From Candidatus Hydrogenedentota bacterium (GTDB lineage Bacteria; Hydrogenedentota; Hydrogenedentia; Hydrogenedentales; JAEUWI01), in the NCBI GenBank assembly GCA_024280935.1, contig JAJRPE010000155.1, positions 1-35,032 on the forward strand: DNA of 35,032 nucleotides. Direction: 5' to 3'. Shown piece by piece: positions 6,851-34,135 of the stretch. The number at the start of each line of letters is the position of its first letter. The first letter of the stretch is position 1. The notes under the pieces were generated by a model. That model saw nothing but the letters and a program-made list of their open reading frames with translations, made no database searches and was not told where the DNA came from. The position numbers and the translations under genes were made by a program.

Positions 6851-8146
6851 ATGGATGATAACACCGATAAGAAAACGCCGAGAAAAAAGCCGGGCACCCC
6901 CTTATTCATGGGGGCCATGGCCTTCTATCTTCTTCTGGTTCACGGCACCAGCCTGTTGATGACCCAGGCGGGTACGGTCCAAGGCCCGCCCCTGGATTGC
7001 CCCGATATCTGGCCGTGGCTCACGGGTACCCTGAATAGTCTCGGCGGTGCTTCGGCCCTGTCGTGCGCACTGGTGGCGCTGCCGCTGCTCTATGGATGCA
7101 TGGTGTGCGTCTTTCTGCTTACGCGCCAGATCGTGGGCGGGCCGCCATGGCTTGGTTCCCTCGCGGGTACATTCCTCATGGCGCACCCGGCGAAGACAGA
7201 AATCCTTTTCACGCCAACGGGACTCTTTTACTGCCTGGCGACGTTGGCTGCCCTTGCTGCGACCTTGGCCTATGTACGGCTTTGCACTCAGGGCTGCGTT
7301 GGGCGTTACATGATTGCCTTGGCATGTTTCGTGTGCGCAACCGTCCCATTTGCTGTGAATGCGGCATTATTTGGGGTACTTATCCTGATTGAGTTCATGG
7401 TGGGTGACCCGGAAAAACGCAATTGGCTCCGTCTTCTTCCTTTCGTATTGGTCACCATGTTGGCCAACTGGTTCCATCTGGATACCATCTATGCCCAAAT
7501 GCCGACACTGGCTACGATGTTTGGCCCCTTGCTCCTCGTGGTGTATCCCATCGGCCTCCTGCATGAAACGGTCGCCGGTTTGGGATTTGCCCCCTGGCAA
7601 GCGTGGGGGTGGGGCGGCCTCGTCTTTGTATGCGTCGTCGCTTCGTTGTATTACATAAAGTCCAAGCCCTACCGCTTTGCGGTGATTGCTATCATCCTCT
7701 TTCGCTTCTATCCCGGTGCCCTGCCCATCGACTACGTTACGATGGACGGCGGAGGCCAGCTTTTCTATCCGCTGGCCCTCACGGGCGTGGCGTTGGCCGC
7801 GCTGAGCGGGTGGCTCATGCGCTTTGAGGCGTGGGGCAAGCCGACGGTAGCCCTGACCACCATTTTGTGTGTGGTGCTGTTTATGTTGCAGTTTCAGGCC
7901 AACCGGGCTTATGTGAATCGCGTGCAGGAGCTTGGGCATCCCTGCCCGACACAAGAGGCACGTTGCGGCATGGAATCCACGCCGGTCTATGTTGCCAGTC
8001 CAAGCGCACGAACCCTCGTGCCTCGGGATCGCGCGGCACGACTATTGAGAGAGGGGGCGCTTTACAGTGTCGATGATGAATTCATGACACAACACGCCTC
8101 TTCTGTCGGGCAGGGATACCCAACCTCCTTTTTGGTGGCATCATGA
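6851..8146 (+). CDS. Polytopic membrane protein with repeat-encoded C-terminus
   Basis: A 431-aa ORF. Residues 1-19 are basic and cytosolic-like; then about eight or nine hydrophobic segments follow (for example FYLLLVHGTSLLM, ALVALPLLYGCMVCVFLL, VGLGFAPWQAWGWGGLVFVC-like and LTTILCVVLFML). I do not recognise a family; the layout resembles polytopic glycosyltransferase or O-antigen-type proteins. From about residue 360 (VQE|LGHPCPTQEARCGM) the sequence is encoded by repeat A3, so the last 70 residues are not ancestral. The TGA stop overlaps the next gene's ATG (ATGA), suggesting translational coupling. A TATACT box ends 10 nt before the ATG and there is no Shine-Dalgarno, so the leader may be very short. 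Confidence 0.6.
   Translation: MDDNTDKKTPRKKPGTPLFMGAMAFYLLLVHGTSLLMTQAGTVQGPPLDCPDIWPWLTGTLNSLGGASALSCALVALPLLYGCMVCVFLLTRQIVGGPPWLGSLAGTFLMAHPAKTEILFTPTGLFYCLATLAALAATLAYVRLCTQGCVGRYMIALACFVCATVPFAVNAALFGVLILIEFMVGDPEKRNWLRLLPFVLVTMLANWFHLDTIYAQMPTLATMFGPLLLVVYPIGLLHETVAGLGFAPWQAWGWGGLVFVCVVASLYYIKSKPYRFAVIAIILFRFYPGALPIDYVTMDGGGQLFYPLALTGVALAALSGWLMRFEAWGKPTVALTTILCVVLFMLQFQANRAYVNRVQELGHPCPTQEARCGMESTPVYVASPSARTLVPRDRAARLLREGALYSVDDEFMTQHASSVGQGYPTSFLVAS
7926..8129 (+). repeat. Family A element, copy A3, inserted into a gene end
   Basis: Ends 7926-7951 and 8104-8129 match as inverted repeats at 24 of 26 positions (AGGAGCTTGGGCATCCCTGC... and ...GGGATACCCAACCTCCT). The interior holds the family core GCACGAACCCTCGTGCCTCG and GGGATCGCGCGGCAC. 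The element lies wholly inside the membrane-protein ORF, which stays open through it, and finishes 13 bp before the GH38-like start codon. Its left end has CAGGAGC where other copies have TAGGAGG, so no stop codon is created. Confidence 0.85.
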
Positions 8147-11100
8147 ACCGGCTCCCAACACGATATCTCGCCCTACTGCTTCTCGTAGTGATGGCGGCCT
8201 TGCCAACGCATGCCCAGGATCCTGCCGAGGCAATGGCCCCAATCCTGGACCGGGGTTACATCGCCCATTGGCTCGTATGCGGACCCTTTACGCCCGATGT
8301 GCCCGGTGGTATTCTAGCGGCGATTCGCGATGATGCGGCTGTGCTCAGCGATAGGGACTTCATGGAGCTCGGCGGCGGTATTGCCCGGATGCGGCCCCGT
8401 CATCTGACGCGGATTCCACGGCCAGAGGGCGGCGATGAAGCGATATGGCAGCAGGCGGGCACGACCGGCCCCGAGCTGGATCTCGCTCCATTCTTTCCCG
8501 GCGAAGCCGTGGGTGTGGCCTACGCGGCCTTCTATGTGTCCTCGCCCAATCGGACGCGGCTTCTCCTTGATTTGGAGTCGCCCTTGGGCGTGCGCATCTG
8601 GGCCAATGGCTTTCCCGTGGCCGACTACGAAGCGGGGCCTTTCGATACGGTGGGCAAGGACCAGATTGCGGTGGGACTTCGTCGGGGCAGCAACCTGGTG
8701 ATCTTCGAGGTGCCCGGCGCGGACTATGCTGCCATGGCCCGCGCCAGGGGATTGAGTGTCGCCCAGCTCACGGCGGGGAGCATGGCCAACCGTCCCCGTC
8801 TGCGCAAGACGAGCGGCTTCGCCCTGTCGCTGAAACTGCACGAGACCAAGCCTTTGGGCGACAAGCTGGTCTACGTTCCGGTGTTGGAAGATGCGGGCAC
8901 CTTCTCTGGCTTTGTGGGCGATTTGAAGCAGGATGTCTTGCTTACGCTGAACAATCCCACAGAAGAAATTTCGGAGCCGGTGGAAGCGCTCATCGCCGTG
9001 CCCGGCATGCCTCTTCCGCAGTTGGTGGAGATTGAAGCGCTCAACGCCGGGGAAACCCGCCAGGTCTCCGTGGCCCTGCCGCTGAAAAGTAGCGGGGCCG
9101 GCAGTGGAATCACGGTGTCCGTCCGGTTGGTCAGTGGCGATGCTACCGCAGCTTTCACCGATACTGTGGTGCTGAATTCTGGCGCGGGCGAAAGCGGCGT
9201 GGTGCGGGTGATTACGGGCCACACCATGTCGGATTCCGATGCGCCCATGTCCGATGCCGACTATCTGAGCAGCGCAAAGCGGCAACTGTTTTTTTGGCGG
9301 CAATCCCCGGGCTACGGCTTTGATTTGGGCTATGCGTCCGCTTGGCACAAGCCCTTCGTGGCTTTTCCTGACTTGCGGGAAGATCTGAAACGGGCAACGC
9401 AGGAGGGTGCCGTTACGGTGCGGAGCGGCTACGCGCCCATCGACGAGCGGGTTGTTGGCGGAACCCTGCTCTGGCGCAACCTCCAACTGGGACTGCACAT
9501 GGCCGGAAGCCACCTCAATAGCACCACGCCGCACTACTTGGCGTGGGACGTGCCGGCCATCGCTCCCCAAACGGCCCAATTGCTTCGTTACACGCCCATC
9601 ACGGGCATGGTGAGCAATCTGGATACGCCGGGCCTCCATCCCTTGAGCCGCCTCTATGATCTTACGGGCAATACACGCTATCTTCGTCGCAAGCTGGTGG
9701 CCCAAGGCCCGGCCAATGTGGATGACCTCCGGGAAATGGTGGCCTTGCAGCGTCGTGAACTGCTCAACCAAGGCATAGCAACGGACGTCCTTGTGCTGGA
9801 AAATGTGGTGTCGCCCCCCGAACCTTTCTATCGTGGCAGCGTCGGGGATCTCGCCCGTGCCTACCCCCGCATTCGGCTGGACGACGGGGGCGCGGCGACC
9901 TTTTTCGAGGAACTCATGGGCTTGGGTGAAGGCGTTCAGATTGCCATTGCGCCCGTGGCGATTAATCTCAACCTGGGTCAACCGGGTGCGCTGCTGTCCA
10001 TGCCCCTGCTGCAACGGACCCATGGCGAGGTCGCCCGGCAATTGGAAGACGCGGAAACCCTGGCAACCTTGGCGAGCCTGCAGGGCGCGGTTTATCCCCA
10101 TGCGGCCATGGAATTTGCCTGGCGCCAGTTGCTCTATTACAGCACCCCGGCGCAGCTTGGCGTGCCTCGGGAGGAGGAAGAAGTGCTCGATGCTCTCGCC
10201 GGATACCGGGAGGTGGCCGAATGGACGGCGGACAGCATTCGGCGGAGCAGCGAGTTTTTGGCGGGTTCTATTGATACGGCGGGGAAGAGTCCCTTGAATC
10301 AGGGCGACTTTCAGGCCCTGGTCGTCTTCAATCCGTCAAGCGAGCGTGCCACGATTCCAGTAACGGCCCGGCTGCCAATCGAAGCACCCAGCGGCCTGGC
10401 CCTCGTCGACGAGGAGGGCACCGCAGTGTCCTTTATCGTTCGGTCCTACCAGGGTGCGCAGCTTATCGAGTTTGTTGCCGATGCACTGCCGCCCTTTGGC
10501 TACGCGACGTATTACGTGGGCGCAACAGGCCGCTTGCCCGCCCCGGTCGCTGGCGCGGACCTGCAAATCGAGAATGAGTACCTGGCGATTTTTGTGGACC
10601 CGGAGACTGGAGCGCTCCAGTCGATCTTGAACAAGAAAACCGGTGCCGAAGTGTCTGCGGGCCTCATGAACGAAATCCTGTTCCTTTCCGAAGATGAATC
10701 GGAGAATCGTGGGGGGACCGAGCTTTGGACACGTTCCGCCGGGGAGGACATGCCCACGCCGACAACGATCACGTCCGATCATTCGGCTTTCCGGGAACGG
10801 ATCTCCGTCATAACGCCGTTGGAATCTGGCTCGCTGGAACAGCACTACACCCTCTACGCGGGCGTGCCCTGGGTCTATTGCGAAACACTCCTCGATGGCG
10901 TCTCCCTGGCTGGAAAGGCAGCGGTCGCCTCCTTTCAGCTTCCCCACGAGGGTGCCAGCCTCTTGGTGGGGGAACGCTTCGGGGCCATGGTCGGCGCGCG
11001 GGGACAGGACGACTTTGTCTTAAAGACCCGTGGCGGAGAAAACGTGGGGGGGACCGTGCCCTATCCCGCCTATCAGTGGGCCGCCCTCAGCGCCAACGAT

Positions 11101-12951
11101 CTGATTCAGGTGGGCTCGGGCGGCGTGGTGCCCTGGGAACCTGCGATAATTGTCTATGGCCCGACCGCTGTGCTGGAGCGGGCCGCGCGTGATTTGCAGA
11201 AGGCCCTGATTGGCCGGGGCATTCCGAGCATTCTTCAGTCGGATGCGCCGGTGAAGCCCGACTTCCTCTGGACCGACAGTACGACGGAGCAAGACAGCAA
11301 CGCCTATCTGGCGTCGGGCTACCGGATGCGCATTGTGCTGGGGAGTCCCGACCAGAATCGATTTTGCGAAGGGTTGCTTGCCCAGTTGTCCGACGAGCGG
11401 GTGACCGAATACATCGAGCGGATTCCGGGCGGCGCGCGGCTGTTGCTCCACGATGAAAATGTTCCCGATGGCATGGCCCCCGTGCCCACCCTCATGCTTG
11501 GCGGACTTACGCCCTCCCAGAGCGCGGAGCTTGCCGATAGCCTTACGCGGGCCGTGCGCCTTGGCCAACGCTACTTGTTGCCGCCCTCAGCCTATGTGCC
11601 CAGTCGCATTCAGCAGGAAACGACCCAAGGTTGCGCCCTTCTTTTTTCGGATACCATGTCGGTGTCCCAGCAGCGCGATGGCCGATTGCTTCTGGGGCTG
11701 CAACATCGTACTCCCCTGGAGCGCCGTGACGGCGATGGAAGTCAGATGCTGACCCGCACGTCCTTTTCCTACGCCATCTTTCCCTTTCAGGACACGTGGC
11801 GGGATGCACAGGTTCCCGCAGCGGCGGCACGCTACGCCATCAAGCCGATTGTCGCCGTGACGGATATTCATCCCGGTGAACTGCCCACCCAACAGGCCTT
11901 TTTGGAGGTGGAACCCAGGGGACTTCGGGTGGCTGGATTGAAGCCTGCGGGCTTTCCCACGACCACCAACACACGCACGGCCTTTCACCCCCGTGATGGC
12001 TACAGCCTTCACGCGTGGGAGCCGACGGGACAGCGTTGGTCGGGCGTTCTGCGCAGCAGCAGCAACATCGCGGAAGCACGCACGGCGGATGTGCTCGAAT
12101 TGCCCCAGACCCCGTGGTCTGTTTCTGGTGCGGAGGTCGAGCTCGAAGTTGATGGATTTCAGTTCTTGCCGCTCTGGTTTCTTCCAACGGTTGCCAAGCC
12201 CCTGGATGGAATCGCGCGGTTGGGCCGGGAAACGGACCCTTATGGCGTGCTGGAGACGCGGTATTGGGACGAGAGGCGCGGTGCGGCTCCCTTGCGGAAA
12301 ATGCCGATTGGCTTGCTGCTGCGCGGTGCCCTGGCCGGAGAATCGCCCGCCATCGAGGTGGTGCTGAGCAACCACACGACCGACCGCACGGTGCAGGGTT
12401 CCGTCACGCTGGAGGTGACATCCGGGTTGAGCTTTGGGCCCCAGAGTTTTTATTACAATCTCGGGCCCGGTCAAAAACATGTAGAGCCAGTCCAGATGGC
12501 CCGCACCCCTGGCATGGACGGGGAAATGGCCGTGGTTGCCGAGACTAAATTTGAAGGCCAGGTCTATCGCGATGTCCTCATGACCAACGAAGCGCCCTAT
12601 CTGATGGAGACCAGTCGGAATGGTGCCCAGCTTCGGGTGAATATCCGAAACGACAGCAGCGTGTATGGCAAAGGCTATTTGGATGTAATCGTGGCACCGG
12701 CGCACTGGCCCGAGCTTGCTAAGTTCCCCGAGTTGTCCATTGCACCACGCAGGGCGGCGGTGTCCATCCCGCCCTATAAGTCGCAAAGCATCGTGTTTGC
12801 CCTGTCCGAGCCGGATGTCGACCTGCCCGTCGTGGTAAAGCTGGCGGCCAATGGGATGGTTCAATACCAGCGAATAACGGAATCAACACCGGCAGCAGGG
12901 GAGGAAGTCACAGGAGCAGACGCCCCCGTGCCGCCACCGCCCAGAAGATAA
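8143..12951 (+). CDS. Very large secreted GH38-like (alpha-mannosidase fold) protein, probably catalytically degenerate
   Basis: 1602 aa with a signal peptide (LALLLLVVMAALPTHA). An N-terminal beta domain with an IWANGFPVADYE carbohydrate-binding-like loop precedes a region with GH38 layout. The C-terminal GH38 sandwich is clear: ALVVFNPSSERATIPV (about 729), LPPFGYATYYV, then ENEYLAIFVDPETGALQSIL (about 809). The family's catalytic landmarks look replaced: where HxHxDxxW is expected there is ITGHTMSDSDAP (about 354), and where the QFHDILPG-type motif is expected there is AWRQLLYYSTPAQLG (about 659). This suggests a binding protein or altered chemistry. A further beta-rich 500 residues follow. 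It overlaps the membrane gene by ATGA; GGTGG lies 5 nt upstream of the start. Confidence 0.7.
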   Translation: MNRLPTRYLALLLLVVMAALPTHAQDPAEAMAPILDRGYIAHWLVCGPFTPDVPGGILAAIRDDAAVLSDRDFMELGGGIARMRPRHLTRIPRPEGGDEAIWQQAGTTGPELDLAPFFPGEAVGVAYAAFYVSSPNRTRLLLDLESPLGVRIWANGFPVADYEAGPFDTVGKDQIAVGLRRGSNLVIFEVPGADYAAMARARGLSVAQLTAGSMANRPRLRKTSGFALSLKLHETKPLGDKLVYVPVLEDAGTFSGFVGDLKQDVLLTLNNPTEEISEPVEALIAVPGMPLPQLVEIEALNAGETRQVSVALPLKSSGAGSGITVSVRLVSGDATAAFTDTVVLNSGAGESGVVRVITGHTMSDSDAPMSDADYLSSAKRQLFFWRQSPGYGFDLGYASAWHKPFVAFPDLREDLKRATQEGAVTVRSGYAPIDERVVGGTLLWRNLQLGLHMAGSHLNSTTPHYLAWDVPAIAPQTAQLLRYTPITGMVSNLDTPGLHPLSRLYDLTGNTRYLRRKLVAQGPANVDDLREMVALQRRELLNQGIATDVLVLENVVSPPEPFYRGSVGDLARAYPRIRLDDGGAATFFEELMGLGEGVQIAIAPVAINLNLGQPGALLSMPLLQRTHGEVARQLEDAETLATLASLQGAVYPHAAMEFAWRQLLYYSTPAQLGVPREEEEVLDALAGYREVAEWTADSIRRSSEFLAGSIDTAGKSPLNQGDFQALVVFNPSSERATIPVTARLPIEAPSGLALVDEEGTAVSFIVRSYQGAQLIEFVADALPPFGYATYYVGATGRLPAPVAGADLQIENEYLAIFVDPETGALQSILNKKTGAEVSAGLMNEILFLSEDESENRGGTELWTRSAGEDMPTPTTITSDHSAFRERISVITPLESGSLEQHYTLYAGVPWVYCETLLDGVSLAGKAAVASFQLPHEGASLLVGERFGAMVGARGQDDFVLKTRGGENVGGTVPYPAYQWAALSANDLIQVGSGGVVPWEPAIIVYGPTAVLERAARDLQKALIGRGIPSILQSDAPVKPDFLWTDSTTEQDSNAYLASGYRMRIVLGSPDQNRFCEGLLAQLSDERVTEYIERIPGGARLLLHDENVPDGMAPVPTLMLGGLTPSQSAELADSLTRAVRLGQRYLLPPSAYVPSRIQQETTQGCALLFSDTMSVSQQRDGRLLLGLQHRTPLERRDGDGSQMLTRTSFSYAIFPFQDTWRDAQVPAAAARYAIKPIVAVTDIHPGELPTQQAFLEVEPRGLRVAGLKPAGFPTTTNTRTAFHPRDGYSLHAWEPTGQRWSGVLRSSSNIAEARTADVLELPQTPWSVSGAEVELEVDGFQFLPLWFLPTVAKPLDGIARLGRETDPYGVLETRYWDERRGAAPLRKMPIGLLLRGALAGESPAIEVVLSNHTTDRTVQGSVTLEVTSGLSFGPQSFYYNLGPGQKHVEPVQMARTPGMDGEMAVVAETKFEGQVYRDVLMTNEAPYLMETSRNGAQLRVNIRNDSSVYGKGYLDVIVAPAHWPELAKFPELSIAPRRAAVSIPPYKSQSIVFALSEPDVDLPVVVKLAANGMVQYQRITESTPAAGEEVTGADAPVPPPPRR

Positions 12952-26166: not shown

Positions 26167-27633
26167 ATGAAAGACCTATATCGTTTTCTGGCCTTTGATC
26201 TGGGTGCGGAGAGTGGCCGCGCCGTCTTGGGAACCCTTCAGGGCAGCAAGATAACGTTGGAAGAAATCCACCGATTTCGGACGGAAGGACTCGTCATGCT
26301 TGGGCGGCGCCAGTGGGACTTGGCACGCATCTATGAGGAAATGATAACGGGTATGACGAAGTGTGCCCGGGAGCATACCGCTGATATCGACGCCATCGCC
26401 ATCGATACCTGGGGGGTAGATTTTGGCCTCCTCGACAGCGAGGGCCATGTGTTGGCGAACCCGGTCCATTACCGCGACAAGCGCACGGAGGGCATGTTTG
26501 AGGCGGCCTACGCCAAGGTGCCTAAAGAAGAAATTTACAAGGCCACGGGCATCCAGTTCTTGCCTTTCAATACGAGTTTTCAGCTATTGGCGCTGGTGGA
26601 GGCAAATTCGCCTCAATTGGCCGCAGCGAAGGATCTTCTGCTTATGGGGGATTTGTTAGCCTACCTGCTCTGTGGCAAGAAGGCTTGCGAATACACCAAC
26701 GCTTCCACGACCCAGCTCCTGGATCCCCACACGCGCACGTGGAACGACGATCTCATCAAGCGCTTTGGCATTCCCCGCGAAATCCTCTCCGACCCGGTGG
26801 ATCCGGGTACCAATCTCGGGTTTATCCTGCCCGAAGTCGCGGAACTCACCGGCATTAATCCGGAGACGCCGGTTATCGCGCCTGGAACCCATGACACGGC
26901 TTCGGCGGTGGTGGCCGTACCCGCGACGGGGAACAGTGGGAACTGGTCTTATCTTTCCAGCGGCACGTGGTCCCTCCTGGGGGCCGAACTCGATGAACCC
27001 TGTATCACGGATGCCAGCATGGCCCAGGATTTCACCAACGAAGGGGGCGTGGGGGGGAAGATTCGCTTCCTGAAGAATATTTTCGGCCTCTGGCTGGTGC
27101 AGGAATGCCGCCGCTCCTGGGAGCGCCAGGAAGGGTCGAAACTCGATTATAGCGTGATTACGGAAGAAGCGGCGCAAAGCGAGGCCTTCCGCTCTATTAT
27201 CAATCTCGACGATCCCCGTCTCTTCGCGCCCGACGATATGCCCAGCCTTATCCAGGAGATCTGCCGCGAGGTGGGGCAGCCCATCCCCGAGACCCACGGC
27301 CAAATTATCCGTTGCGCCTTGGAAAGCCTGGCGCTGAAATACCGCGAGACCCTAAAGGCCCTCGATGATACCCTGGGGCGCAAGACAGATACCCTCCACA
27401 TCATCGGCGGCGGTACACAGAACAAACTGCTCAACCAGATGACCGCCGATGCGTGCGGTGTTACCGTGGTAACGGGGCCGATTGAAGCCACAGTGCTGGG
27501 GAACATCGGCGTGCAGGCCATGGCCGTGGGCGCGTTGGACTCGCTGGATGCCGTGCGCAAGGTGATTGGGGATAGCGTTACGCTGGATACCTACACCCCG
27601 CAGAACACAGAGAAATGGGCGGCGTTTGCGTAG
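26167..27633 (+). CDS. rhaB: Rhamnulokinase (FGGY family)
   Basis: 488 aa, full length. It phosphorylates L-rhamnulose to rhamnulose 1-phosphate. FGGY features: the phosphate-1 loop LAFDLGAESGRAVLG, IDTWGVDFGLLD, APGTHDTASAVV, the RhaB-like SSGTWSLLGAELDEP and the C-terminal adenosine loop IGGGTQNKLLNQMTADA. Absence of xylulokinase-type neighbours and the GAESGR start favour rhamnulokinase over other FGGY sugars. AGGA lies about 8 nt before the ATG. rhaA and rhaD are not in the window, so the pathway is dispersed or partly elsewhere. Cytosolic. Confidence 0.9.
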   Translation: MKDLYRFLAFDLGAESGRAVLGTLQGSKITLEEIHRFRTEGLVMLGRRQWDLARIYEEMITGMTKCAREHTADIDAIAIDTWGVDFGLLDSEGHVLANPVHYRDKRTEGMFEAAYAKVPKEEIYKATGIQFLPFNTSFQLLALVEANSPQLAAAKDLLLMGDLLAYLLCGKKACEYTNASTTQLLDPHTRTWNDDLIKRFGIPREILSDPVDPGTNLGFILPEVAELTGINPETPVIAPGTHDTASAVVAVPATGNSGNWSYLSSGTWSLLGAELDEPCITDASMAQDFTNEGGVGGKIRFLKNIFGLWLVQECRRSWERQEGSKLDYSVITEEAAQSEAFRSIINLDDPRLFAPDDMPSLIQEICREVGQPIPETHGQIIRCALESLALKYRETLKALDDTLGRKTDTLHIIGGGTQNKLLNQMTADACGVTVVTGPIEATVLGNIGVQAMAVGALDSLDAVRKVIGDSVTLDTYTPQNTEKWAAFA

Positions 27634-27811: not shown

Positions 27812-30800
27812 TCATCCATCCAAATCCACCGGCCCTGGCCGCACGATTTCGGGCGCGTTTTGGATCGTGGGCCGAATGGCGAGCCAGTCGATGCCCTGAA
27901 ATTCGGGGTCGGGGATCTCCCTGATTTCTTCGCTGCCCCGGTAGGGGGCCATGGCATCGACCCAGAGAATGAGGCGGCGGATATTCTCGGGATCAACCTT
28001 GGTGTTATAGTGCGTTCCGCTGGAGGCGATGTCGATGAGCTTGCTCGTGTAGGAGAGCTGGGTCATGGGCGGAGGCGTGGCGTAGGCTTTCGGGTCGCGT
28101 TGCCCATAGCCTTCGACCATGAGCATGCCCGCGATGCCAAAACCGGGCGGCGGATTCTCGGGCATTTCATAGGCGCGGCCCCAGGCGGGCTGCCCGGTGA
28201 ATAACCAGTAGTTCACATCGAAGCCCAGCTTGCCTGGTCGTGGTGTTGTGTCGAGGACTTTTCGCGCCTCACCGTCTCCTTCGTGGCAGGACGCACAGTA
28301 TTGGTCGAGGGCCGGGCGGACGTAGCGCTCCCAACTGATGCTGTCTTCACCCCAGGGCGGCGGTGTGATTCTGTCGGGTTCGCGGTGCAATGCGGCGGCT
28401 CGGAGCGGCGCTTCGGGCGTGGCATTGTGGCGTTCATGACAGCCCACGCAGCCCCGCCGCTCACCCGGCATCACCCCGGTAAAACTGCGCATGGTCTGCA
28501 AGGCGCGGTAACGCTCGTCGAGCAACTGGAAATGCAGCGGAATCCCTGACGGCGCATGAAAGGATACGGAGCCGTCCTTTTCGATGGGCACCGTGCCGAG
28601 AATGCGCTTGACACCATCCGACTGCACGCCCGAGACCACGGGGCCCGTGGAGAGATAGGGGCGTTTGTTCCAGTAGGTGTACGTTTTGTGCTCGATGCTG
28701 AGGACGCGCAGGAACTTTGCTTTTCCGTTCAGTGCCGGTGGCGCGCCTTCGTAGATGTTGCTGCTGAAGATGACACCATCCTTGGGGTTCAGCCGCTCTT
28801 CACGGGTTGGCCAATCCACCTGGTCCGGGATGATGGGCGGTTTCTGACGCGCCTTCAACGGGATGGCATGAAAGATATTATGCACCCCCTCGTAAATTAA
28901 TTCCCGGTTACCGTCCACATCCATCAAATACAAGACAAACTTGCCGTCGCGGTTCGCGGAGACGATGAAATCCTTTTCGCTGAGCGGATAGGGCGAGTAG
29001 TAGCTCTTGTAGGCGCCGCTGCTGTGGTAATTTTCTGATTCCACCGGATCAACGGGGCCATTACCCGATTCTGGCCATTGCACATCGGCGGTGACTTTGG
29101 TGAGTCCGTCGGGGAAATTGAGGCCCTTGTCGGGGTCGATGATGCCGACGGAGCCCGAAAACCAGTCGTGGTGGGCGCTGCCGGTGAACATGATGCGTTG
29201 GCTGCCGGGAATACTCCGCGCATCCTTGAGGAGATCCGGCCAGACACTCTGGTTGCCCCACAACGTGTTTACCTGCGTGCCATCGGGACGCATTGTCCAG
29301 AGGCTCTGGGCACGCCAGAGGGGCTTGTCGGTGTATTCCCAGCGCGTGTAAATTACCCGGCCATCCTGCAACACGGAGGGCAGATAATCCGGCTCGTTGG
29401 CACGGGAAAGAATGTAGATGTTCTTCCCATCGGCATCGGAGCGGGCCAGCGGGTAGGCGCTCGTCGGCGGCATGCAGCGCACATAGGTATGGCCCCGCGT
29501 GGTGCTGAAAAGGATGTGCCCGTCGGGAAGGTAGACGGGATCGAGATCGTCGTAGTTGCCAAAGGTGAGCTGGGTCAGGTTGGTGCCATCGGTATTGATT
29601 TCGTAGAGGTGGAAGGCTTTTTCATTGTGGGGCTTGAAGGAAAACAGCACCTTCGTGCCATCGTAAGAGAGGTCTGGTCGCCAGAAGGAGCCGTGTAAGG
29701 GGAGTTGGGGCATCAACTGTGTAAGGCGTCCTTCCGGGGAGAGGCCATCCAGGATCAACAGCCGCGCACCAGGAACCGCCATGTAACCCAGACGATGGCG
29801 TGTTTCATGGGGCCATTCCGATCCATCCGGGAAGGGCATGTCCACAAACAGCATCTTGTCGAAATCCAGTGTGGGATTCTTGAACATGATTTTCCGCTTG
29901 ATCGACCGCACCGCAAAGTAGCGTTCGCGGTCCGTCACGGCCTGGCCTTCCAAGGCGCTCAACTGCTCCAGCTCCGTCGTGAAATCCACGCCTTCGATGC
30001 GTGCCGCCAACTGGCGTGTCCACCGGATCTCATCGCGGATGCGTTCGGGTGTTGGGGTGTTGTTCGCCTGATAAAGCCAATCACGCTCCAGCGCTTCCCT
30101 GGCTTCCGTAGCATCAAGCGTGCGTGTCTCCGGGGTGCTGGGCGTGCGGTAGGGAGCGACGGCTTCGCGGACGACGGGCCGGTGATCGATCCGTGCGCCC
30201 GCCTCAAGCAGCAGCTCGATCCATTCGGACGAAAAGCGTGCGGCCTCGTCCTGTTTACTAAGGGCCGTGAGTCGCTGCGCTATCGCATCGACCTCCTCCC
30301 ACCCTTTGCGAGCCTCGGGATCCAGCGCAGCATACTGGGATTCCGTCAGGGGTTTGTACTCCGACATCAAGGCGATAAGTTGTGTCGCCAGTGATTGGTG
30401 CAATCCAGATTCGCTTGAGAGGAGGTAATCTATCGGGGTGATGCCCATCTGCTCCGCGAAGGCCCTGGCTTTCTTGGGAAACTCCTTCCCCAGTTTGGCG
30501 GAGAGGGCCAGCGAAATCTCACCATCAAGTTGTGCCGACTTTTCACTGAGCATCTGATCTATCCGAACCAAGGTCTCCGCAAAAGAAAGCCCGGTTGGAT
30601 AAAAGGTATTCAATCTGGCTTCGAGTTCTCGTGCAAATTCCGCCACCGTCGTCTGCCCTTCCGCGTAGAGGGCCGCCACGTCGTTGCCCGACAGCGCCAC
30701 GCTGTAGATGCGCAAATCGTCCATCGTGCCATTGAAATGTTCGAGCCTTCCGCCCAACGAGCCGATGTATACGGAAGGCGACTTGGATAGCTTCATCGGA

Positions 30801-31288
30801 GCGGAGCGTTTCAGGCTGGTGATTTCCACACCGTCCAGGTAGAGCCGCATCACGGCACCATCGTAGGTGGCCGCGCAATGGTGCCACTGTCCGTCCATCA
30901 CCTGATCCGGCACAATGGCTGTTTCGCATTCCACATAGCCGCCTGCATTCAGTCCGAAGGAGAGAATCGTGCCATTGTGCTGGAAGGAGAAGAGGAGTCG
31001 GTTCCCACTCTCCTGCCGAAGAATCTCTCGATGCCCCGAAAGATTCGTGGGACGCACCCAGACCGAAAGGGTGATCTGTTCCAGCCCATCGAATTTGGAC
31101 GCAACATCGACTTCGTGATTGTGCTTGCCTTCGAGAGCCAAAGCATTGCCAAGTACGCCTTTGGGATTATCCGCATCATCAAAGGTCCATCGCGCAAGGA
31201 GGGAGCCTTCCAGATCCTGTGCGATGCCGGGGGCCGCTAAAAGCAAGATGAGTGCGACAAGGCTTGCGCGTAAGTGTGGGGTGTACAT
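27812..31288 (-). CDS. Secreted LamG / propeller / di-heme protein (hydrazine synthase alpha-like family)
   Basis: 1158 aa from ATG 31288, which has AGGAGG 8 nt upstream; the track's extra 34 residues are dismissed. A signal peptide (LVALILLLAAPGIA) is followed by a LamG concanavalin-like domain (about 25-215: LARWTFDD, ITLSVWVRPTNL, WHHCAATYDGAVMRLYLDGV). A helical linker leads to TolB/propeller-like blades (about 520-800: RPDLSYDGTKVLFSFKP, DLDPVYLPDGHILFSTTRG). The C-terminal third has two c-type heme sites, CVGCH (about 947) and CASCH (about 998). The arrangement of propeller, SFTGVMPGERRGCVGCHERH and heme tail matches proteins annotated with the hydrazine-synthase-alpha middle domain. 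No anammox partners are present, so hydrazine synthesis is not implied. Confidence 0.75.
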   Translation of the reverse strand: MYTPHLRASLVALILLLAAPGIAQDLEGSLLARWTFDDADNPKGVLGNALALEGKHNHEVDVASKFDGLEQITLSVWVRPTNLSGHREILRQESGNRLLFSFQHNGTILSFGLNAGGYVECETAIVPDQVMDGQWHHCAATYDGAVMRLYLDGVEITSLKRSAPMKLSKSPSVYIGSLGGRLEHFNGTMDDLRIYSVALSGNDVAALYAEGQTTVAEFARELEARLNTFYPTGLSFAETLVRIDQMLSEKSAQLDGEISLALSAKLGKEFPKKARAFAEQMGITPIDYLLSSESGLHQSLATQLIALMSEYKPLTESQYAALDPEARKGWEEVDAIAQRLTALSKQDEAARFSSEWIELLLEAGARIDHRPVVREAVAPYRTPSTPETRTLDATEAREALERDWLYQANNTPTPERIRDEIRWTRQLAARIEGVDFTTELEQLSALEGQAVTDRERYFAVRSIKRKIMFKNPTLDFDKMLFVDMPFPDGSEWPHETRHRLGYMAVPGARLLILDGLSPEGRLTQLMPQLPLHGSFWRPDLSYDGTKVLFSFKPHNEKAFHLYEINTDGTNLTQLTFGNYDDLDPVYLPDGHILFSTTRGHTYVRCMPPTSAYPLARSDADGKNIYILSRANEPDYLPSVLQDGRVIYTRWEYTDKPLWRAQSLWTMRPDGTQVNTLWGNQSVWPDLLKDARSIPGSQRIMFTGSAHHDWFSGSVGIIDPDKGLNFPDGLTKVTADVQWPESGNGPVDPVESENYHSSGAYKSYYSPYPLSEKDFIVSANRDGKFVLYLMDVDGNRELIYEGVHNIFHAIPLKARQKPPIIPDQVDWPTREERLNPKDGVIFSSNIYEGAPPALNGKAKFLRVLSIEHKTYTYWNKRPYLSTGPVVSGVQSDGVKRILGTVPIEKDGSVSFHAPSGIPLHFQLLDERYRALQTMRSFTGVMPGERRGCVGCHERHNATPEAPLRAAALHREPDRITPPPWGEDSISWERYVRPALDQYCASCHEGDGEARKVLDTTPRPGKLGFDVNYWLFTGQPAWGRAYEMPENPPPGFGIAGMLMVEGYGQRDPKAYATPPPMTQLSYTSKLIDIASSGTHYNTKVDPENIRRLILWVDAMAPYRGSEEIREIPDPEFQGIDWLAIRPTIQNAPEIVRPGPVDLDG

Positions 31289-31898: not shown

Positions 31899-34055
31899 TC
31901 ACTCCCCAAGCTCACGCTTCTTGTCCCGAATCGGGCGGTAGCAGTATTCATTCATCAACGCGACAGCACCGAGGTCGCCGTGGTCGGTAGCCACATCAAC
32001 GTAGCTCTGCAGTGCATCGCGAATCGCTTCATAGGCCAATCCAATCTGCTTCTTGGCCTCACCATTGTCTTTGGCCTTCTCAGCCACCGAGGTAGCACCG
32101 TAGGCTTCGGCGGCATCGAGGTAGCGGACGGCGAATTTCAGGCGGCCCACGTAGTAGGCGGTGTATGCTTTCCCCGAGGGCGTGCTGCGTTGGTGAGCTT
32201 CTTCCATCTTTTGCAGCGCTATCCGGTATTGAGCGTGATCTTTTTTCAGGTTCGCCGAAAGCCCACCGGCACCGTAGTGTTTCGTCATCATGCCAGGCAC
32301 GGGGAAACCAAAGCCGAGGCCGTGCTGGTCGAGGCCGATGGTGATGGCCTCAATAATGGCCAGCGCTTCCAAGGCGGGCTTGGTCGCCTCTTCACCACAA
32401 ATGTTGGCAAATTGATCGCGGTAGGCGCTCTGGGGCGTTACGGATGCGTCCCAACTGGCCCGGGCCAGAAAGTGGATGGTCGGGTTGAGATCGCTGACGG
32501 TCCAATAGCGGGTGTAGAAACCGGCCCAGTCATTTTGACGCAGTTCTTGCATAAGCTGGTACAAGGAACCTGTCGCAAGCTGGGGGAGGACTCCCACGTT
32601 GTCGTCTGCCAGGGTAAAGGTGAGGGTGGCGGGCACGGTTTCTTTCGGAGTCTGCCGCAGGAGTTCGCGCTGCTTGAGTTGGCGGCTTGCCGTGTAGTCG
32701 ATGAAGCTCAAGATTTCGCCACCGCTCGGCAGGACCTCTTCGATGAGGGGGAAGAGTTCGGCCACGATACCGGTGTAGACGATTTTGATTTGCTCGTCGC
32801 TGTTCGGGCGTTTGAGCAGATCGTATTCCGCGATCAGCGAGTCCAGGAACCAAAGCGAAGCCACGTCGCCCTTCAGCATCTTCTCGACGCGTTCACCGCC
32901 GCCGGGGAAGGAGGTCCGCGCCCGTGCTTTGGCGCAGAGTTCTTCGTAGCTGCCCAGGTTCTTCTCCGGGTACCGCGCCTGAAACTTCTCGTAGGCCGCT
33001 TTCGCCTGGCTGACCCAGCTGCGGTGCTCGGGGGTGTTGAGGTGGAGGTAATCGACCTCGGGATAGGTCTCGATGTAAGCACGAATAATGGTGCTGACCA
33101 TTTCCCGAAGCAGGGGGTCGTCCATGGACTGTTCGGGACCCGGTCCCGCCGTAAGCTTTCCGAGCTGGTTCACCGGCTCCGATTGGGGCATGACTTCCAT
33201 GAACTGCTTTGGCCATTCGAAGGGCTGGATAGAGAGGCCCGTTTCCATGCCGAGGGTGCGGGCTTCGTCCAGGATGCCACGAACCAGCGCGATGCCGCGC
33301 TTGTTGAAGTCTTCCGGGGACGTGCTTCCTGCAAGGTCGGGGTTCATAAAAAAATCCCCATTCCCGAGTTTCTCCCGCCCCACAGTATCGTCATCAATAG
33401 GAAACTTCGCACCGAAGTTGACGATACCCGGTGGCTTTTCCATGCCTCGGAAGGCGTACTGCACGAAGGGCTGCATAGGCCAAAGGGAGACATGGATGCG
33501 GTTGTACTTCATCTTCGCCATCTGGCGCAGAAAGCGCTGGTTCTCGGCGAGACTCCAGGAAATGGGACCACTCGCGAGATCATTCACCAGACGCCAGCAA
33601 CGGATACGCATGTTGGGTGTCATGGAAACACTCAAGTCGGGGAGGCCGGTCCAGGTTTTGGACTCAGGCAGGACATCCCGGTCCTGTAGATAACGGACGC
33701 CCCACCGCTCCGCCTGTTCATAGACCGCCCAAAGGGTCGCCACAGGGCTGCCACCTGCGATGAGAAAGGTGTCGCCCTCGCGCCGAAGGGTGATGGATTG
33801 GGTATCAGTCGCGTTTGGTGTGGTGGCGACGAGGAAACGCTGTTCATTGTCCACCGCCGCCGCCCGAATCGGGGCCTCCACCTTGAACAGTTTAGTTACG
33901 TAGCCTTGGAGTTCCTCCGCCGCGAGCTTTTCGAGGGGATGGGCATCCGCCTTAACGACAATAGAGACCGATTCGACCGCCGAGAGTTCCCTGCAGATTG
34001 CGAGGGAACAAATGAGGATCAGACACTTGAGAATGTGAGGGTAGAAGTGTTTCAT
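31899..34055 (-). CDS. Secreted glycosidase-like protein with GH67-type N-terminal domain
   Basis: 718 aa from ATG 34055; the 13-residue upstream extension is unlikely. A signal peptide (ILKCLILICSLAICRELSA) precedes a GH67N/GH20b-like alpha/beta domain (HPLEKLAAEELQGYVTKLF, ATLWAVYEQAERWGVRYL), which normally sits in front of TIM-barrel catalytic domains such as alpha-glucuronidases. The barrel region (about 150-480) has MAKMKYNRIHVSLWP and VDYLHLNTPEH, where the EH may hold an acidic catalytic residue. The C-terminus is helical. The substrate is not clear; plausible neighbours in function are the sialidase remnant upstream and the di-heme LamG gene downstream. It may share an upstream promoter with the broken gene. 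Confidence 0.65.
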   Translation of the reverse strand: MKHFYPHILKCLILICSLAICRELSAVESVSIVVKADAHPLEKLAAEELQGYVTKLFKVEAPIRAAAVDNEQRFLVATTPNATDTQSITLRREGDTFLIAGGSPVATLWAVYEQAERWGVRYLQDRDVLPESKTWTGLPDLSVSMTPNMRIRCWRLVNDLASGPISWSLAENQRFLRQMAKMKYNRIHVSLWPMQPFVQYAFRGMEKPPGIVNFGAKFPIDDDTVGREKLGNGDFFMNPDLAGSTSPEDFNKRGIALVRGILDEARTLGMETGLSIQPFEWPKQFMEVMPQSEPVNQLGKLTAGPGPEQSMDDPLLREMVSTIIRAYIETYPEVDYLHLNTPEHRSWVSQAKAAYEKFQARYPEKNLGSYEELCAKARARTSFPGGGERVEKMLKGDVASLWFLDSLIAEYDLLKRPNSDEQIKIVYTGIVAELFPLIEEVLPSGGEILSFIDYTASRQLKQRELLRQTPKETVPATLTFTLADDNVGVLPQLATGSLYQLMQELRQNDWAGFYTRYWTVSDLNPTIHFLARASWDASVTPQSAYRDQFANICGEEATKPALEALAIIEAITIGLDQHGLGFGFPVPGMMTKHYGAGGLSANLKKDHAQYRIALQKMEEAHQRSTPSGKAYTAYYVGRLKFAVRYLDAAEAYGATSVAEKAKDNGEAKKQIGLAYEAIRDALQSYVDVATDHGDLGAVALMNEYCYRPIRDKKRELGE

Positions 34056-34135
34056 TGATATCTCTCTTTGGATCGTATTGGTTGGTTGTATCACGCGAAA
34101 CGGAGTGCCGATAGATTGGGGTTGCTGATAGATTT

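Follow-up and report, generated by a model that had tools for sequence, protein, structure and literature searches.

To our knowledge, hydrazine synthase has long been regarded as an enzyme without relatives. Homologues of its HzsA and HzsBC components outside anammox bacteria are already published (PMC12758564, PMC10732223). According to PMC12607021 and PMC12758564, the iron of heme alphaI in HzsA is ligated by Tyr591, and His587 and Cys303 are located on a zinc ion; the latter source also reports Cys303 to be missing in Scalindua. In a separate group of proteins, the planctomycete-specific cytochromes (PSCyt), fusions to LamG domains have been described in Verrucomicrobia (PMC5615132). We analyzed a 35,032-nt stretch of DNA from a Candidatus Hydrogenedentota bacterium (contig JAJRPE010000155.1; the whole stretch is referred to as the window), in which the gene at 27812-31288 on the reverse strand encodes an HzsA-like protein with an N-terminal LamG domain. 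The clade to which it belongs is a new variant among the published homologues.

As judged by profile comparison and structural modeling, this LamG-HzsA-like protein belongs to the HZS_alpha domain family; it is built like HzsA but is not a hydrazine synthase. It is a predicted exported protein with two putative hemes and a front domain of the sugar-binding type. Our preferred explanation, to which we assign a probability of roughly 0.55, is that it is exported and serves as the alpha-type subunit of an extracytoplasmic, HZS-like heme redox system that does not make hydrazine, targeted through its LamG domain and paired with an HzsB-HzsC-like partner. The gene and its parts are located as follows.

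27812..31288, reverse strand: LamG-HzsA-like di-heme protein gene, 1158 aa, ATG at 31288 and stop at 27812 (ORF and translation, Pfam, AlphaFold2, Foldseek)
31217..31288, reverse strand: predicted Sec-type signal peptide, about residues 1-24, MYTPHLRASLVALILLLAAPGIAQ (by eye from the translation)
30674..31084, reverse strand: LamG/concanavalin-A-like domain, residues 69-205 (Pfam PF13385, 1.7e-27; beta-sandwich in the AlphaFold2 model)
29882..30688, reverse strand: helical linker domain, residues 201-469 (DSSP of the model; alignment extents), of which only about residues 390-469 are common to LamG-less relatives (alignment extents)
28793..29857, reverse strand: beta-propeller, about residues 478-832 (model; TolB/PD40 matches; aligned with the HzsA propeller)
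29474..29476, reverse strand: Cys605, conserved in 103/103 members of the family; a collinear alignment places no Cys of HzsA opposite it
29168..29170, reverse strand: His707 of the propeller, 102/103, a candidate pocket residue
28433..28726, reverse strand: HZS_alpha middle domain, residues 855-952 (PF18582, 4e-24)
28436..28450, reverse strand: heme site 1, CVGCH, residues 947-951, lacking a Tyr at the HzsA Tyr591 position
27929..28396, reverse strand: C-terminal cytochrome c domain, about residues 965-1120 (model; alignment to HzsA)
28283..28297, reverse strand: heme site 2, CASCH, residues 998-1002 (translation; conservation in relatives)
28010..28012, reverse strand: His1093, invariant, at most one residue from HzsA His772 (distal ligand of heme alphaII)

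The AlphaFold2 model, the profile searches, and the counts of residue conservation all drew on one alignment of 103 relatives. In the model (pLDDT 92.1, pTM 0.87), LamG forms a beta-sandwich, alongside a helical region, a beta-propeller, and regions for HZS_alpha and the cytochrome. When the model was compared with the PDB by Foldseek, the top match was HzsA (5c2v chain A; E 6.1e-25 over 845 columns, TM 0.60 by target length), followed by generic TolB propellers at about 6e-12. The 103-relative profile likewise retrieved 5c2v_A from the PDB at an E of 3.2e-34, and hhalign against eight genuine anammox HzsA sequences (L159-L166) gave a probability of 100 and an E of 7.5e-45 across 638 columns at 20% identity, a level that leaves the pairing of propeller residues uncertain, as propeller blades can slip. 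Foldseek and hhalign thus agree on the fold and domain order of HzsA. Searched alone against the PDB with phmmer, the C-terminal piece found no match; only the profile reaches HzsA along its length. In Pfam, Laminin_G_3 (PF13385) scored 96.8 bits against a gathering cut-off of 27.6 and HZS_alpha (PF18582) 85.5 bits against 26.6, with weaker scores for the TolB/PD40-type propeller repeats. The initial annotation had proposed the HzsA relationship and had named beforehand, as the outcome that would speak against it, the lack of a profile match together with an unrelated fold; the analysis clearly gave the opposite on both counts. Its gene coordinates, N-terminal LamG domain, propeller, and two CxxCH sites were likewise borne out. 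A separate candidate, the HETRH sequence at residues 494-498 (an HExxH pattern), was weighed as a possible metalloprotease site but rejected, as no helix bears it in the model and the family does not conserve the motif.

The LamG-HzsA architecture is common to 56 homologues from public genomes and the source phylum. Those sampled form one clade (SH-aLRT 100) in a quick tree in which genuine HzsA occupies a separate long branch, and such conservation within a single clade indicates that the arrangement is not due to chance. The branch extends over Planctomycetota, Verrucomicrobiota, Lentisphaerota, and other metagenome-assembled genomes (MAGs). The phylum is small, and its sample comprised 68 genomes of one order; MAGs make up most of the genomes, and the names of some records resemble ill-fitting binning labels (e.g., "Nitrospiraceae" for L079). 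HZS_alpha genes number 11 in the source genome, were present in 22 of 40 sampled phylum relatives, and amounted to 6 to 39 in each of six other genomes (19 in Lentisphaerae strain WC36, whose genome is complete). The domain combination had been called unusual at the outset. We found no literature on the fusion of LamG to an HzsA core; LamG-cytochrome fusions in general are not unique, given those of Verrucomicrobia.

An HzsA fold, an HzsBC-like partner in the genome, and one octaheme cytochrome of the HAO type in the same genome would be compatible with a true hydrazine synthase, or some other enzyme that forms N-N bonds, as part of a hidden anammox-type metabolism. This explanation is highly improbable and largely refuted. 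The HzsA equivalog NF052339 scored 40.8 bits, far from its 800-bit cut-off, whereas anammox HzsA controls, which came from a wider genome sample, reached 1065-1642 bits. Tyr591 and Cys303 are absent, the partner lacks the third heme cysteine of HzsC as well as the His144 region, the octaheme protein scores 67 against the hydrazine dehydrogenase cut-off of 900, and up to 39 HZS_alpha copies occur per genome. Genuine HzsA was absent from the searched genomes of the phylum sample and of one planctomycete class, in keeping with the earlier suggestion that the gene has no anammox context, and a redox role other than hydrazine synthesis, also suggested there, is likely. The octaheme cytochrome itself (L187:3093-4535, source genome contig C215; 481 aa, 8 CxxCH) has a four-CxxCH protein upstream.

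The heme sites depart from those of HzsA at heme 1. The Tyr591 position is occupied by Asn in the LamG-HzsA-like protein, and a Tyr at +4 after the CxxCH histidine occurs in 0/103 relatives; in L165 and L166 the first heme motif lies at 583-587, with numbering as in Kuenenia. The counterpart of Cys303 in the hhalign alignment is Gln680 of a conserved GNQ motif, in an uncertain propeller register. Without the Tyr proximal ligand and the Cys303 zinc ligand, heme 1 is probably a c-heme of the ordinary kind, ligated by His. For the second, bis-His heme, both ligands (His689 and His772 in HzsA) appear to be retained, as CASCH and the invariant His1093, and the placement of the latter within one residue of His772 suggests that heme 2 is probably of the bis-His, electron-transfer type (His1002/His1093). 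Invariant in all 103 relatives are the CVGCH and CASCH sites, Cys605, Trp650, Tyr652, Tyr1027, His1093, and Trp1109. Genes for c-heme assembly are present, which we count in favor of a heme redox system.

The bis-His, electron-transfer marks of heme 2 and the loss at heme 1 of the features that make it catalytic in HzsA could also describe a noncatalytic electron-transfer or docking cytochrome, in which the hemes would only relay electrons (or the propeller would only scaffold) and LamG would serve as a surface or matrix tether. We regard this as unlikely: the conservation of Cys605, Trp650, Tyr652, and His707 over 103 diverse sequences suggests a selected pocket and not a mere scaffold. In the alpha-type subunit that we favor, the propeller would form a pocket facing heme 1, with Cys605, Trp650, and Tyr652, all invariant, together with His707 as its putative lining, and heme 2 would transfer electrons.

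No hzsB/C-like genes were found within the window. The initial annotation had described the gene as occurring without hzsB/C, which stands for the window but not beyond it, as an HzsBC-like fusion gene is present elsewhere in the genome and beside close kin. On contig C581 of the source genome (locus L014, 3-6550), two HzsA-like genes in tandem are followed by this HzsBC-like gene, an alpha-alpha-beta-gamma tandem that is probably an operon. The partner combines a YVTN/lactonase propeller with a CCP_MauG di-heme domain and has two CxxCH sites. The top PDB fold match of its model was HzsB (5c2v_B; E 2.9e-25, TM 0.86), and its profile matched HzsB at 2.2e-54 and HzsC at 2.6e-38. Across 40 phylum genomes, the partner was present in 18/22 of those with HZS_alpha versus 1/18 of those without (Fisher p 1e-6, kinship ignored), and it was present in 21/22 genomes bearing a window-type or sister-type alpha. 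At 16/32 partner loci, the gene immediately upstream, in the same orientation, is HzsA-like, with 0 cases of other arrangements within the examined flank. This upstream slot is filled by at least three alpha types, namely the two of the tandem (L014a1 and L014a2) and, in G038, the window type. Close relatives of the LamG-HzsA-like protein occur there as well: a 58%-identical alpha (L057/L173) is directly upstream of an HzsBC-like partner, and L127/L216, placed in the LamG clade by the tree, is 15 nt upstream of one. In a "Ca. Brocadiia" MAG, a single 1770-aa ORF (L208:2046-7355, reverse strand, G068:C285) contains both an alpha and an HzsB-HzsC-like half and has four CxxCH in all, and in the complete genome of Lentisphaerae bacterium WC36 (L210, G071) one alpha is directly upstream of beta-gamma. 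Gene context thus shows a functional tie between the wider family and an HzsB-HzsC-like di-heme partner of the MauG/peroxidase type.

Several points weigh against extending this tie to the LamG-type protein. No partner gene lies beside the 27812-31288 gene. The survey of neighbors in related genomes suggested by the initial annotation was run, and LamG-type genes had no conserved neighbors across 54 public loci and seven phylum genomes, so that reading a function from the neighbors of LamG-type loci failed; those of the LamG-less sister group comprise only scattered families. With neither an adjacent partner nor conserved neighbors, the pairing with a distant partner gene is only inferred. In the LamG-clade member that does adjoin a partner, the N-terminus of L127 is cut by the contig end, so that any LamG of its own would lie outside the sequence. 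Alpha copies also outnumber partner genes, by 11 to 1 in the source genome. LamG domains are also known from proteins without glycan binding, and we know of no published role of the HzsA fold other than N-N bond formation.

Accessory modules recur in the family. Among 35 full-length paralogs and homologues scanned, NPCBM was found in 4/35, F5/8 type C in 2/35, PA14 in 1/35, an FGE-sulfatase domain in 3/35, and HEAT repeats in 2/35, and one further paralog gave a sub-threshold rhamnosidase-N match. Among the closest solved relatives of the LamG domain by sequence is the AbnA arabinanase domain 5hon. The possible oxidative glycan chemistry raised by the initial annotation is circumstantially supported by the several carbohydrate-binding-type modules of the paralogs, and copy number and module variety favor an organic or glycan-associated substrate over a nitrogen compound, as far as sequence comparison can indicate. 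Other domain arrangements were observed in the same family: an HzsA-like protein with a C-terminal FGE-sulfatase (formylglycine-generating-enzyme-like) domain is encoded directly upstream of a beta-gamma-like gene (L211:1684-5718, forward strand), and Mala_s_1-like propeller domains are fused to or located between HzsA-like genes (L139:2461-6456, L012:15855-16823).

The recurrence of these modules on paralogs, the kinship of the LamG domain to AbnA, and the precedent of LamG, NPCBM, and PA14 on planctomycete cytochromes (PMC5615132), along with the occurrence of LamG-clade members as single genes without conserved neighbors and copy numbers of up to 39 per genome, as in substrate-diversified families, could be accounted for by a stand-alone glycan-acting oxidoreductase. 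Such an enzyme would have no beta-gamma partner: LamG would hold a polysaccharide, heme 1 would oxidize it, and heme 2 would pass electrons to a soluble cytochrome. We consider this rather improbable, given that no enzyme of the HzsA fold is known to act on carbohydrate, that neighbors of LamG-type genes show no enrichment in glycan genes, and that the wider family is tied to the HzsBC-like partner.

For the partner-paired alpha-type subunit, we propose instead that LamG would dock the protein on a glycan or cell-surface ligand at the reaction site, and the LamG-type alpha of the HZS-like system is probably glycan- or surface-targeted. The window protein may then be one of several interchangeable alpha "heads" for the HzsBC-like partner or a similar cytochrome. 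In a more far-reaching version, which we offer as doubtful speculation, one or a few HzsBC-like cores would serve many exchangeable HzsA-like heads, each aimed by its module at a different glycan or surface and oxidizing extracellular organic polymers. The family would then be a large class of tetraheme enzymes of the HZS-like kind, put to use on carbon rather than nitrogen, with hydrazine synthase as a specialized offshoot.

Other genes of the window were noted. Upstream of the LamG-HzsA-like gene on the same strand, 31899-34094 (reverse strand) encodes a 731-aa exported protein without a Pfam, NCBIfam, or convincing PDB match, whose N-terminus gives the impression of resembling GH67/GH20-type glycosidases. 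The convergent gene at 26167-27633 (forward strand) encodes an FGGY kinase of the rhamnulokinase type (512.6 bits versus an equivalog cut-off of 527.95), and for the 1602-aa exported protein of 8143-12951 (forward strand) the sole match, GH38 C-terminal, is sub-threshold.

Knowing the function of one family member would reveal a possible activity of the ancestor of hydrazine synthase. It would also assign a role to the very abundant "HZS_alpha" proteins, which naive annotation could mistake for anammox genes. Lentisphaerae strain WC36, with its alpha directly upstream of beta-gamma, is a possible experimental model if a culture is available.

Compared with HzsA of Kuenenia stuttgartiensis (PDB 5C2V; NF052339; PF18582), the window protein shares the order of propeller, HZS_alpha, and cytochrome c regions, the overall fold, the two CxxCH sites, and a likely bis-His second heme. 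It differs in its low identity (about 20%), its added N-terminal LamG domain and helical linker, the lack of Tyr591 and Cys303, a score far below the family cut-off, and the absence of HzsB/C beside the gene. The heme motifs, 102 residues apart in HzsA, are separated by about 51 in the window protein.

The non-anammox HzsA/HzsBC-like clades I-IV of PMC12758564 also have an alpha without Tyr591 or Cys303 and, in many genomes, a fused beta-gamma homologue with the alpha upstream. The window protein is a candidate member of this type: its Tyr591 is missing, and one LamG-clade member and one close relative adjoin a partner, whereas the window locus has none. According to that paper, His772 is absent in clade I and heme alphaII in clades II-III, whereas the window branch keeps the second heme and His1093; no mention of LamG fusions was found in its available portions.

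The partner resembles the MauG/di-heme cytochrome c peroxidase family in the two CxxCH sites and CCP_MauG match of its HzsC-like half, but it bears an N-terminal HzsB-like propeller and lies outside the window. Finally, the PSCyt proteins (PMC5615132) are likewise expanded c-type cytochrome families of the PVC group fused to LamG_3, NPCBM, PA14, F5/8C, or rhamnosidase-N. This module list, closely similar to that found here, was read in that study as a hint of carbohydrate metabolism, in which the module-bearing proteins were proposed to act. The two groups differ in their core, which in the window protein is that of HzsA, without PSCyt or PSD domains.

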